Below are positions 18,152 through 31,714 of a stretch of DNA of 61,065 bases, piece by piece. Origin of the DNA: Nitrospiria bacterium (GTDB taxonomy: Bacteria; Nitrospirota; Nitrospiria; JACQBZ01); contig DATIYJ010000030.1 in the NCBI GenBank assembly GCA_035517655.1, positions 1 to 61,065 on the forward strand, given 5' to 3'. The notes below the pieces were generated by a model. The model had not been told where the DNA came from, did not search any database, and saw nothing but the letters and a program-made list of their open reading frames with translations. The first letter of the stretch is position 1; each line of letters starts with the position of its first letter. The position numbers were made by a program, and so were the translations under genes.

Positions 18152-18180
18152 TTGCTTTGAATCCGATCCCCCGCTACAAT
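18152..18180 (+). promoter_or_regulatory. Promoter of the sirtuin gene, close to the start codon
   Basis: TTGCTT and TACAAT with a 17-base spacer. The -10 box ends 7 bases before the ATG at 18188 and there is no Shine-Dalgarno sequence, so the message is predicted to be leaderless. Confidence 0.6.
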
Positions 18181-18187
18181 GTCCCGC

Positions 18188-18955
18188 ATGTCATCACCGA
18201 TTGAACAGGTTCGTGAGCGTCTTTCATCGGCCCGGCGCGTGACGGTCCTCACCGGCGCCGGCATCTCGGCCGACAGCGGCATCCCGACCTTTCGCGGCCC
18301 CGAGGGCCTATGGAAAAATTTCCGGGCGGAGGATCTGGCCACGCCGCGGGCCTTCGCCCGCGATCCAAGCCTCGTATGGGAATGGTACAACTGGCGGCGG
18401 GAGTTGATCGCCTCGAAGGAGCCGAACCCGGCGCACCGGGCGCTGGTCGATCTGGAAAACAAAATGGAATCCCGCCTGTCCCTGCCCGTCCGGCAGGCGG
18501 ACGGCAGGCAGGCGCGGCGGGCGCCGTTTCGTCTGCTGACGCAGAACGTGGACGGTTTGCATGCGCGGGCCGGAAGCCGCGACCTCGTCGAGCTGCACGG
18601 GAACATCTGGAAGGTGCGCTGCACCGGCTGCGGCGCCGTGTCGGAGGACCGGCGGGTCCCGATCCCGATTCCGCCGCACTGCGCCTCGTGCGGGAAGATG
18701 CTGAGGCCGCACATCGTCTGGTTCGGCGAAGCGCTGCATCCCCGGGACATGGACCGGGCGATCGAGGCGCTGGAATCCTGCGACGCGCTGCTGGTGATCG
18801 GAACCTCGGGCGTGGTCCAGCCGGCCGCCTCCTTCGCCGCGACGGCCCGCGCGGCCGGGGCCTTCGTGGCCGAGATCAATCCGGACGCCTCGACCGCCGC
18901 GGCCCATGTCGCCCTGCGCGGACGCGCGGCCGAGATTGTCCCGCAGCTAATTTAA
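18188..18955 (+). CDS. cobB: Sir2-family NAD-dependent protein deacylase
   Basis: Removes acyl groups from lysines using NAD. It has 255 residues with the NAD motifs LTGAGISADSGIPTFRG (about 20-36) and LTQNVDGLHARAG, catalytic His in VELHGNIW, and a structural zinc site (CTGCG and CASCG). I take the ATG that follows the -10 box by 7 bases; an in-frame ATG three codons upstream overlaps the -10 box. Between LENKM and the TQNVDG strand there is an extra, Arg/Gln/Pro-rich segment of about 15 residues (SLPVRQADGRQARR) encoded by a palindromic repeat, apparently an in-frame insertion. Gene otherwise intact. Confidence 0.92.
   Translation: MSSPIEQVRERLSSARRVTVLTGAGISADSGIPTFRGPEGLWKNFRAEDLATPRAFARDPSLVWEWYNWRRELIASKEPNPAHRALVDLENKMESRLSLPVRQADGRQARRAPFRLLTQNVDGLHARAGSRDLVELHGNIWKVRCTGCGAVSEDRRVPIPIPPHCASCGKMLRPHIVWFGEALHPRDMDRAIEALESCDALLVIGTSGVVQPAASFAATARAAGAFVAEINPDASTAAAHVALRGRAAEIVPQLI
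18481..18500. repeat. Short GC-rich palindromic repeat, copy in the sirtuin gene
   Basis: CCTGCCCGTCCGGCAGGCGG, identical over 20 bases to copies at 28104 and 31422. It contains the hairpin CCTGCC/GGCAGG; in this copy the palindrome is extended, because CTGCCCGTCCG is followed by its near-complement CGGACGGCAG. It lies in frame within the coding region. Confidence 0.85.
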
Positions 18956-21166: not shown

Positions 21167-21352
21167 CCCGCCGATTGGCACTGGGCCCAAGAGGCGACTC
21201 TGATTTCGTTTGGGCTCCCGGCTTGGCGAAGGACGCGGCCCGCCAGGGTCAATTTTCGGCAGAGCATCTTCGGAAAATTGAGCGGCCGAGCCTTAGCCGG
21301 GTCAAACGAAAGCCGCCGGAGCCGAAGGGCTCAGCGCCAGACGGCGCTTACC
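21167..21352. repeat. Long imperfect palindrome, intergenic element copy 1
   Basis: About 186 bases between the MBL-fold gene and rimO. An 85-base core (21222-21306) is identical at 80 positions to the core of copy 2 at 30597-30681. The inner hairpin is CAATTTTC/GAAAATTG. The outer arms (GATTTCGTTTGGGC with GGGTCAAACGAAAG, and further out TTGGCACTGGGCCC with GGGCTCAGCGCCAG) pair with each other but are different in sequence from the arms of copy 2. The rest of the gap (21010-21166) holds nothing I can identify. Confidence 0.8.
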
Positions 21353-27032: not shown

Positions 27033-27575
27033 CTATCGTCGATCTATCCTATCCGAGTGGTTTTCATCCATCGACCAATTCGCCGGGTTGCCTTGGATGT
27101 ATTCGCGAGTGCGATTCAACTCGTCATCATTCCGGATAATGTGTTCGTAATAATTCCGTTGCCAAAACGGTTGTCCTGAACAGGACAACAGACGGTTGAC
27201 CCGTATGGCCGACATCGATTTGAACGTGCGCACAACATCCCCCAGTGTAGGGGCGCTGCTTGCTGCGCCCTGTTTATCGGGCAGGGCAAGCCCTGCCCCT
27301 ACAAGCGCAAGGATCCCATGTACATGGTTGGGCATGAGGGCAAACGCGTCCAATTCAACCGATGGAAACCTTGCAGGGAGATCTTTCCACACGCGTTCAA
27401 CGATCCTTCCCGCGTCATTCAAAACCATCCGGCCATCGAATATATCACCGAACAAGCATTCCCGGTTCTTCACACAGACCGTCACAAAATACGCTCCCGT
27501 CCGACTGTATTCATAGCCCTTCAAACGGATGGATCGCCGATGATGAATCTCGGGCATGTACCGGCTTTTCATCAT
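27033..27575 (-). CDS. REP-associated tyrosine transposase (RAYT)
   Basis: 180 residues of the IS200/Y1 family branch that mobilises REP palindromes. It begins MPEIHHRRSIRLKGYEYS at its conserved part (27557), though a better ribosome site (AGGAGG) precedes ATG codons at 27575/27572. It shows the metal HUH pair in ALMPNHVHGIL and a C-terminal Tyr region NYYEHIIRNDDEL...REYIQGNPANW. Between HVHGIL and the LGDVVRTFKS helix lies an insert, VGAGLALPDKQGAASSAPT, encoded by a double-hairpin REP-like sequence. Catalytic residues look intact. Related GC-rich repeats flank the gene at about 26941-27000 and 27585-27620. Confidence 0.9.
   Translation of the reverse strand: MMKSRYMPEIHHRRSIRLKGYEYSRTGAYFVTVCVKNRECLFGDIFDGRMVLNDAGRIVERVWKDLPARFPSVELDAFALMPNHVHGILALVGAGLALPDKQGAASSAPTLGDVVRTFKSMSAIRVNRLLSCSGQPFWQRNYYEHIIRNDDELNRTREYIQGNPANWSMDENHSDRIDRR
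27247..27302. repeat. 56-base REP-like double hairpin inside the RAYT gene
   Basis: Starts GTAGGGGC and ends GCCCCTAC. It contains two hairpins: GGGCGC/GCGCCC (27251-27270) and a perfect 9-bp GGGCAGGGC/GCCCTGCCC with AA loop (27280-27299), joined by a short AT-rich spacer. Same length and ends as the element at 60165-60220 and same ends as the palindrome at 28624-28651. It is read through in frame by the transposase gene. Confidence 0.85.
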
Positions 27576-28103: not shown

Positions 28104-28124
28104 CCTGCCCGTCCGGCAGGCGGG
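28104..28124. repeat. Short GC-rich palindromic repeat, intergenic copy
   Basis: Intergenic copy of the CCTGCC/GGCAGG hairpin repeat also found in the sirtuin and queG genes. It lies in a gap of about 390 bases (27972-28365) that otherwise contains a sequence GGAAATGGGGACGGATTT near 27976, common near RAYT genes, and a short gene-like remnant (reading LTYSLPKQIMGQLPTIEEL on the minus strand, stop at 28221). Confidence 0.85.
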
Positions 28125-30540: not shown

Positions 30541-30724
30541 TGGTGGCAGCTTGGCCAAGACCGTAAACCGCGACTCGGTTGAGATTTGGGCACCGCCTTG
30601 GCGAAGGACGCGGCCCGCCAGGGCCAATTTTCCGCAGAGCCCCTTCGGAAAATTGAGCGGACGAGCCTTAGCCGGGTCAAATCTCAGCCGTTGAGCGGAC
30701 GAGGACTTGGCCAAGCCGCCACCT
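30541..30724. repeat. Long imperfect palindrome, intergenic element copy 2
   Basis: About 184 bases filling the gap between polX and queG. The core (30597-30681) is 80/85 identical to copy 1 at 21222-21306, with a perfect inner stem CAATTTTCCG/CGGAAAATTG. The outer arms GTGGCAGCTTGGCCAAGACC and GGACTTGGCCAAGCCGCCAC pair almost completely, as do GAGATTTGGGC and GGGTCAAATCTC, but these arm sequences are unlike those of copy 1. Both copies have the same orientation between two minus-strand genes. Confidence 0.85.
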
Positions 30725-30730
30725 TAAATT

Positions 30731-31714
30731 TCACGCCGTAAATGGCATCAGTGCCTTTGCATTTCTCTGAAGGCCCGCGCGCTTGGGACGGAGCAGCGGC
30801 GTGTCGCGGAAGGCGGCGCGGAATTCCTCGTCCGATTTTAAAGCCAGCACCTTCTCCAGGTCCAGCCAGGGCCCGGCGCCGTGATCGGGCCGGAATTCTT
30901 CGACCGCGGTCGGCTTTGAACGCGCGTTATAAGGGCAGACCTCCTGACAAATGTCGCAGCCGAAGACCCAGCCGTTTAATTTTGGGATCAACGCATCCGG
31001 AATTTCAACTTTGTTCTCGATCGTGAGATACGAGATGCAACGGTTCGCATCAAGATGGTACGGGGCGACGAGCGCGCCGGTGGGACAGGCGTCAAGACAC
31101 AGTCGGCAGCTTCCGCATTCGGAGGTCCGGGCCGGGCCCGGCTCCAACGCCAGCGTCGTCAGGATCACGGATAGGAAAACCCACGAGCCGAATTCCTCCG
31201 TGATGAGCAGCGTGTTCTTCCCGATGAAGCCGATCCCGGCCTGCCGCGCGAAGGCCTTCTCCAAAACCGGTCCGTGATCGACATAACTCCGGCAGTCCGT
31301 CTGCGCGCCGGACGCCTCGCGGATAAAAACCTCCAATTGCGACAGCCGCGCTTCGATAAGATCATGGTAATCCCCGCCCCAGGCGTAACGCGAGACGCGG
31401 CCCATGCTCGGGGCGCGGCGCCCTGCCCGTCCGGCAGGCGGGGCCGTCACCCGACCCGGATCGGAAGGCCGTTCCTGCGCGTAATTCACGGCCAGCACGA
31501 TCACGCTTTGGGCGCCGGGAAGAAGGGCCCGCGGCCTCGACCGGCGACGCGGATCGCGCGCCATGTATCCCATTCCGCCATGCCGCCCTTCGGCCAGCCA
31601 TCGCGAAAGCGCCTCGTCGTCCTCATCCAGATCACCGGCCGAGGCGATTCCGACGGCGTCGAAACCCAGGGCCCGCGCCCGGTCAAGGACCTTCTGAGTC
31701 AGGGAAGACGGCAT
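30731..31714 (-). CDS. queG: Epoxyqueuosine reductase
   Basis: Cobalamin- and iron-sulfur-dependent last step of queuosine synthesis in tRNA. It has 327 residues, with RSYVDHGPVLEKAFARQAG and IGFIGKNTLLI (catalytic Asp/cobalamin region) and the two 4Fe-4S motifs CGSCRLCLDACPTGAL and GWVFGCDICQEVCPYN. Between VNYAQERP and GRVSRYAWGGDYH there is an extra Ala/Pro/Gly/Arg-rich stretch (DPGRVTAPPAGRAGRRAPSM) encoded by the same palindromic repeat as in the sirtuin gene. The cluster Cys are all present, so the enzyme is probably active. Confidence 0.93.
   Translation of the reverse strand: MPSSLTQKVLDRARALGFDAVGIASAGDLDEDDEALSRWLAEGRHGGMGYMARDPRRRSRPRALLPGAQSVIVLAVNYAQERPSDPGRVTAPPAGRAGRRAPSMGRVSRYAWGGDYHDLIEARLSQLEVFIREASGAQTDCRSYVDHGPVLEKAFARQAGIGFIGKNTLLITEEFGSWVFLSVILTTLALEPGPARTSECGSCRLCLDACPTGALVAPYHLDANRCISYLTIENKVEIPDALIPKLNGWVFGCDICQEVCPYNARSKPTAVEEFRPDHGAGPWLDLEKVLALKSDEEFRAAFRDTPLLRPKRAGLQRNAKALMPFTA
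31422..31442. repeat. Short GC-rich palindromic repeat, copy in queG
   Basis: Same CCTGCC...GGCAGGCGG repeat as at 18481 and 28104, in the coding region of queG. It is read here on the opposite strand and so encodes a different peptide (PPAGRAGR) from the one it gives in the sirtuin. Confidence 0.85.

Follow-up and report, generated by a model that had tools for sequence, protein, structure and literature searches.

The window, the whole stretch of 61,065 nucleotides that was analysed, is contig C30 of a genome of 2.65 Mb in 71 contigs, labelled G000 in the comparisons below. It carries a Sir2-family deacylase gene with an in-frame palindromic insert, located between helix LVDLENKM and strand LLTQNVDGLH of the protein. 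The SIR2 match covers the whole length of this sirtuin (18179-18955), its catalytic and zinc residues are intact, all alignment-invariant residues are kept, and its nearest named relatives are from Nitrospirae/Nitrospira genomes. The insert, its parts and the related units of the window are as follows.

18179..18955, + strand: gene (258 aa) for the Sir2-family NAD-dependent deacylase that holds the insert (SIR2 profile match, conserved residues).
18471..18512, + strand: 42-nt in-frame insertion made of two nested 21-nt units (alignment to congeners, sequence arithmetic).
18471..18480, + strand: left half of the outer unit, CCCGCCTGTC (sequence; canonical 21-mer known at other sites).
18481..18501, + strand: inner unit CCTGCCCGTCCGGCAGGCGGA, within the loop of the outer unit (sequence and copy search).
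18502..18512, + strand: right half of the outer unit, CGGCAGGCAGG (sequence).
28104..28124, + strand: intergenic unit CCTGCCCGTCCGGCAGGCGGG (copy search; no ORF spans the copy).
30731..31714, − strand: unit-bearing queG, for tRNA epoxyqueuosine reductase (TIGR00276).
31422..31442, + strand: unit CCTGCCCGTCCGGCAGGCGGG inside queG, the gene being on the minus strand (copy search, TIGR00276, alignment).

Aligning the sirtuin with those of close relatives bore out the extra segment claimed in the preliminary description: compared with same-genus and same-family orthologues, which are about 84% identical and have no insert, the excess is exactly 14 residues or 42 bases, encoding the peptide LSLPVRQADGRQAR. 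Distant orthologues do not share it either, the segment being absent from all 31 aligned homologues of several phyla. Excising 18471-18512 leaves ATG GAA TCG CGG CGG GCG CCG TTT, that is MESRRAPF, one residue from the MESRRAQF of congener G002. The segment had been taken for one 20-base repeat with a flanking palindrome, and here the description has to be replaced: the 42 bases read CCCGCCTGTC-[CCTGCCCGTCCGGCAGGCGGA]-CGGCAGGCAGG, where the bracketed 21-mer is the inner unit, a single base different from the family's commonest unit, and the joined outer halves (18471-18480 and 18502-18512) give CCCGCCTGTCCGGCAGGCAGG, another common unit found at other sites. Since the inner 21-mer and the joined outer halves both match common units, the sirtuin holds one unit inside the loop of another. 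As single-stranded DNA, the 42-mer folded better than 199 of 200 shuffles. Entry at a surface loop, also proposed earlier, agrees with the AlphaFold model (mean pLDDT 91.6), which places the insert in a predicted disordered loop (residues 100-116, between helix 84-99 and strand 117-121); this loop is the only low-confidence block of the model, and residues 101-110, with an average pLDDT of 54, score lowest. Judged from these comparisons, the insert is genuine: a 21-bp palindromic micro-element has recently entered the sirtuin gene in frame, which does not imply a function for the host protein.

The 20 bases reported from queG and from an intergenic region are indeed there: exact copies of the 20-mer lie at 31422-31441 and 28104-28123, besides the one at 18481-18500, and in shuffles the matches at ≤3 mismatches averaged 0.07. 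Another repeat of the window, a 98-nt sequence at 21218-21315 and 30593-30690 (90% identity), has no match in Rfam. Genome-wide, the 20-mer occurs in 8 exact copies and in 31 copies at ≤3 mismatches, versus 3 for a reversed-pattern control. The recognisable units of the genome number about 40. A wider search that included a 20-nt variant gave 40 places, two of which, in ClpB and RlmN, were removed as native coding sequence after their conserved protein motif was recognised (by motif and not by alignment). The conserved genes that bear units and could be named with NCBIfam comprise polA, mutL, mutS, recJ, a family-4 uracil-DNA glycosylase gene, hrpB, cysS, gatB, lysS, ispH, glgA, a gene for a formate-dehydrogenase/NuoG-like protein, a pair encoding mannose-1-phosphate guanylyltransferase and phosphomannomutase, and a gene for a radical-SAM protein of a UDG-linked family; queG and miaA are further carriers. 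Replication and repair genes are prominent among them: polA three times (G000 C35:34039, 34196 and about 35850), mutS, mutL, recJ and UDG. Units of the 21-nt type lie in ORFs with a coding score >30 in 23 of 25 instances, those of the 20-nt type in 6 of 13 (Fisher p = 0.003), and three of these six (two in hrpB, one in polA) proved by alignment to be 21-nt inserts. The 20-nt variant CCTGCCTGCCGGCAGGCAGG is nested in a longer repeat, GAGCAAGGCGAGCGAC...GGGAGGGG (L200, L013, L015, L016), and the coding signal there is mostly not strong. The UDG gene of genome G005 contains a related longer repeat that lacks the unit.

The unit is a 21-bp GC-rich hairpin-forming repeat with the consensus CCYGCCYGTCCGGCAGGCRGG; a variant with a perfect 8-bp stem reaches a hairpin stability of z = −4.0, and a search of Rfam returned no family matching the element. 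Its common variants contain a stop codon in none of the six frames, and in-gene units use both strands and several frames, so that their peptides differ (LPVRQAG, PARPAGG, RLPDGQA, LPAGQAG and others). This variety of frames, strands and peptides argues that the peptide is not the thing maintained. Genes tolerate the unit because it is seven codons long, because all six frames are open in the common variants and because the surviving copies are those where a short loop fits. Positions 7 and 19 of the 21-mer covary (C-G 89, T-A 55, T-G 6), a pattern that may reflect two founder variants; it fits crossing pairs CCTG(1-4)/CAGG(14-17) and CCYG(5-8)/CRGG(18-21) and not a nested stem. The corresponding crossing-helix pseudoknot would be 94% Watson-Crick versus 80% for the nested stem, but its zero-length connectors are sterically doubtful, and we rejected it.

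Empty sites were analysed in four related genomes and one more distant genome, using a chimeric protein query and codon-aligned loci. At least 17 sites in 15 genes, the sirtuin included, hold in-frame additions that are specific to G000 or shared by G000 and G002, the direction of insertion being assigned by parsimony among genomes that are metagenome bins. The sites that are empty in relatives lie in the sirtuin gene, gatB, nuoG/Fdh-like, mutS, polA (3 sites), cysS, ispH, hrpB (3 sites), manC, manB, norD-like, rSAM, an ABC permease gene, miaA and queG. Thus the count of in-frame copies across the genome, like the sirtuin alignment, came out in favour of the preliminary description, with many copies in other genes and empty sites in relatives. 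The insert measures 21 nt in gatB, nuoG-like, mutS, the polA C-terminus, cysS, the ABC permease gene and the three sites of hrpB, 42 nt in the sirtuin, norD-like and ispH genes, 39 nt in manC and 18 nt in miaA; in queG and at the first two polA sites the length differs from relative to relative, and for mutL, UDG and some N- or C-terminal intragenic cases the alignment gave no clean resolution. The additions of gatB, nuoG-like and miaA are common to G000 and G002, the others are not, and queG of G002 has its own 21-nt addition at a different place from that of G000.

Boundaries were computed for ten clean cases (gatB, nuoG-like, mutS, polA C-terminus, cysS, ABC permease, two in hrpB, and ispH and norD of G002). 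The insert was 21 nt in 10/10, a length that in genes is partly the product of a filter, since selection for multiples of three acts on in-gene inserts. The precise boundaries put CC...GG at the ends of the insert and the CGTC/TGTC letters at its centre. Direct-repeat ambiguity amounted to only 0-1 nt in six of these inserts and 4-5 nt in the other four; hence there is no consistent target-site duplication.

The nested arrangement of the sirtuin recurs elsewhere. In ispH and the norD-like gene, one unit is present in G002 and two in G000, the second within the first; manB has one unit in congener G001 and two in G000, and in the rSAM gene G000 has a single unit where G002 has a longer stack. 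Inner units interrupt the outer unit at its CCGG centre. The probability of at least 5 nested events among 45 insertions, for about 40 units in 2.65 Mb, is about 3e-12, a figure that assumes uniform random targets and approximate copy and event numbers. Nesting so far above random expectation suggests either a preference of the element for its own centre or copying at that place.

The unit is patchily distributed. CCTGCCYGTCCGGCAGGC was found in 5 of 117 relatives, with 10 copies in G000, 14 in G002 and none in G001, and units of G002 also lie within intact genes, including recJ (identified by eye). Among 396 Nitrospirota genomes of 169 genera, 31 genomes and 25 genera have the 21-mer when one mismatch is allowed, and the reversed-pattern controls gave zero. 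A GGTAGG variant is present in several lineages of 42% GC. Several other Nitrospirota families (G284, G271, G324, G376, G263, G318) have a subfamily, CCTGCCTGTCCGGTAGGCAGG, with TAG in one of the six frames, so that this frame should be barred in genes. In IMG/VR, exact matches were obtained in 28 stretches, and the contigs, ranging from 39 to 70% GC, carry the same 21-mers. In the viral contig set of taxon 2820306284, 13 units lie within 14 kb, several of them in long open frames of phage-like genes; the set's capsid protein, used in a host search, had no match in the phage collection. In IMGVR_UViG_2820306284_000004 (43% GC), the 13 copies in 14 kb were counted at ≤2 mismatches, and other contigs of the set are also unit-rich. 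In 496,717 bases of sirtuin loci, taken from 80 genomes across many phyla, there was no unit at ≤3 mismatches, and the open-access papers that were searched by sequence and by encoded peptides mention neither.

We consider it highly probable that the sirtuin insert results from two successive insertions of a 21-bp repeat that behaves as a selfish, non-autonomous micro-mobile element moved in trans. In the compared sequences, this reading has dispersed near-identical units, precise in-frame 21-bp insertions, nesting and patchy presence behind it; movement in trans, possibly as a hairpin, is what we infer to explain them. The unit would be moved by a putative enzyme acting in trans, possibly in the form of a single-stranded DNA or RNA hairpin; its insertion would strongly favour its own CCGG centre and leave no consistent target-site duplication, and in-gene copies would survive where a short seven-codon loop can be accommodated. 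Were the 21-mer to move in this way, it would stand near the lower limit of mobile size, among the smallest DNA elements that look mobile. It would also supply conserved enzymes with natural seven-residue loop insertions, and odd indels in alignments of uncultured bacteria may go back to it unnoticed. Because a given site can be empty in one related genome and hold a single unit or nested units in another, these genomes offer a clean test of how a micro-repeat spreads.

A bolder claim, that the unit spreads horizontally as a mobile element and has machinery of its own, draws on the identical 21-mer in distant bacteria and their viruses; the genome survey covered Nitrospirota, and it is the viral contigs that speak for spread across phyla. 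We hold this claim tentatively and lean somewhat against it. If true, it would place the unit among the smallest mobile DNA, with its own palindromic centre as the preferred target and seven-codon loops left in essential proteins.

Alternatively, units could multiply by replication or repair errors, such as template switching or the capture of hairpin oligonucleotides at breaks, without a dedicated transposase. The missing consistent target-site duplication, the self-nesting at the palindromic centre and the fact that no associated gene was found are all compatible with such errors. We nevertheless find this unlikely: near-identical units at many unlinked sites, and on contigs of very different GC, need a dispersal route, and the sirtuin combines two distinct dispersed variants, neither of its units being a local copy of the other.

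The RAYT (REP-associated tyrosine transposase) at 27033-27575, 8.5 kb away in the window, is the obvious candidate for an enzyme that would mobilise the unit as a REP element. RAYT-like genes are present in the genome, this one included, the unit is a short GC-rich palindrome, and the genome also contains a GTAG-type REP pair. But the end of the unit has no unpaired GTAG or CGTC tag, the units are mainly in genes, and in 26 genomes the number of units does not track the presence of RAYTs: 24 of the 26 have RAYT homologues regardless of unit count, G263 has 9 units and no RAYT match, and G121 and G011, with 15 and 8 RAYT matches, have zero units. RAYT transposases are thus not convincing as the driver, and we judge a REP mobilised by the neighbouring gene to be distinctly improbable. 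The RAYT-like gene 27033-27575 (− strand) itself holds a GTAG-tagged inverted REP pair in its own frame (27247-27302, GTAGGGGCGC...CCCCTAC).

A functional DNA or RNA motif (protein-binding, chromosome-organising or uptake signal), kept in genes by selection, would account for the conserved sequence and for the covariation of positions 7 and 19, but the unit is almost missing in congener G001 and missing altogether in most relatives, orthologous sites differ in unit presence between sister species, copies are nested, and orientation and frame are mixed; we give this explanation little credence. An ancestral loop of this sirtuin lineage, lost in others, can practically be set aside, as the loop is absent in same-genus, same-family, class and other-phylum homologues, the same DNA occurs in unrelated genes, and nothing was found in its support.

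Taking the unit as a micro-mobile element moved in trans, its closest likeness among known repeats appears to be with the small dispersed repeats (SDRs) of cyanobacteria, followed by REPs and RPEs. SDRs are hairpin-like, dispersed units of 21-27 nt with no known transposase, reportedly self-nesting in some families, and are described as limited to a group of cyanobacteria. The families SDR1-8 were reportedly defined in Nostoc and relatives by Elhai et al. in 2008 (Genome Res 18:1484). A further mark of SDRs is a shared structure backed by compensatory changes; in our unit positions 7 and 19 covary, perhaps through two founder variants. Our unit resembles them in its length of about 20 nt (21), its hairpin-like form, its dispersal, its nesting in its own copies and its palindromic target. 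It probably differs in sequence, and it does differ in lying often in frame in protein genes and in its occurrence among Nitrospirota as well as on viral contigs that vary widely in GC. SDR5 is described as inserting precisely in a palindromic target, HIP1 (PMC4390886); SDRs are also treated in a further citing paper (PMC2884548).

The unit had been likened to RPEs, and part of that likeness stands: it is palindromic DNA lying in frame in many unrelated protein genes and tolerated by the proteins. It is however not an RPE. RPEs are about 150 bp long (review), whereas the unit is 21 bp, has an unrelated sequence, nests in itself and resides in a Nitrospira-group genome, not in Rickettsia; RPE-4 and RPE-6 are CGTC-type REPs (PMC3733652). 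With the GTAG/CGTC REPs, the unit shares a short multi-copy palindrome (20-40 bp class; 21 bp and about 40 copies here), a stem length near 8 bp and a loop length near 5 nt. Unlike them, it has no unpaired GTAG/CGTC end tag, no CCA tail and no AT at the start of the stem, it is mostly intragenic where REPs are predominantly extragenic, and it is nested and forms no head-to-head dimers. REPINs, which are mobilised by RAYTs (PMC3116915), are likewise miniature non-autonomous repeats, but they are REP doublets, whereas the unit occurs as single 21-mers that do not track RAYT presence. The phenomenon was said to be little described; this holds less than claimed, as intragenic palindromes outside Rickettsia were already known in 2013 (PMC3733652). 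Intragenic REPs are described from many species, DNA-repair and tRNA-modification genes being frequent carriers (Di Nocera 2013, PMC3733652), and our unit resembles them in having copies in the DNA-repair genes polA, mutS, mutL, recJ and UDG.
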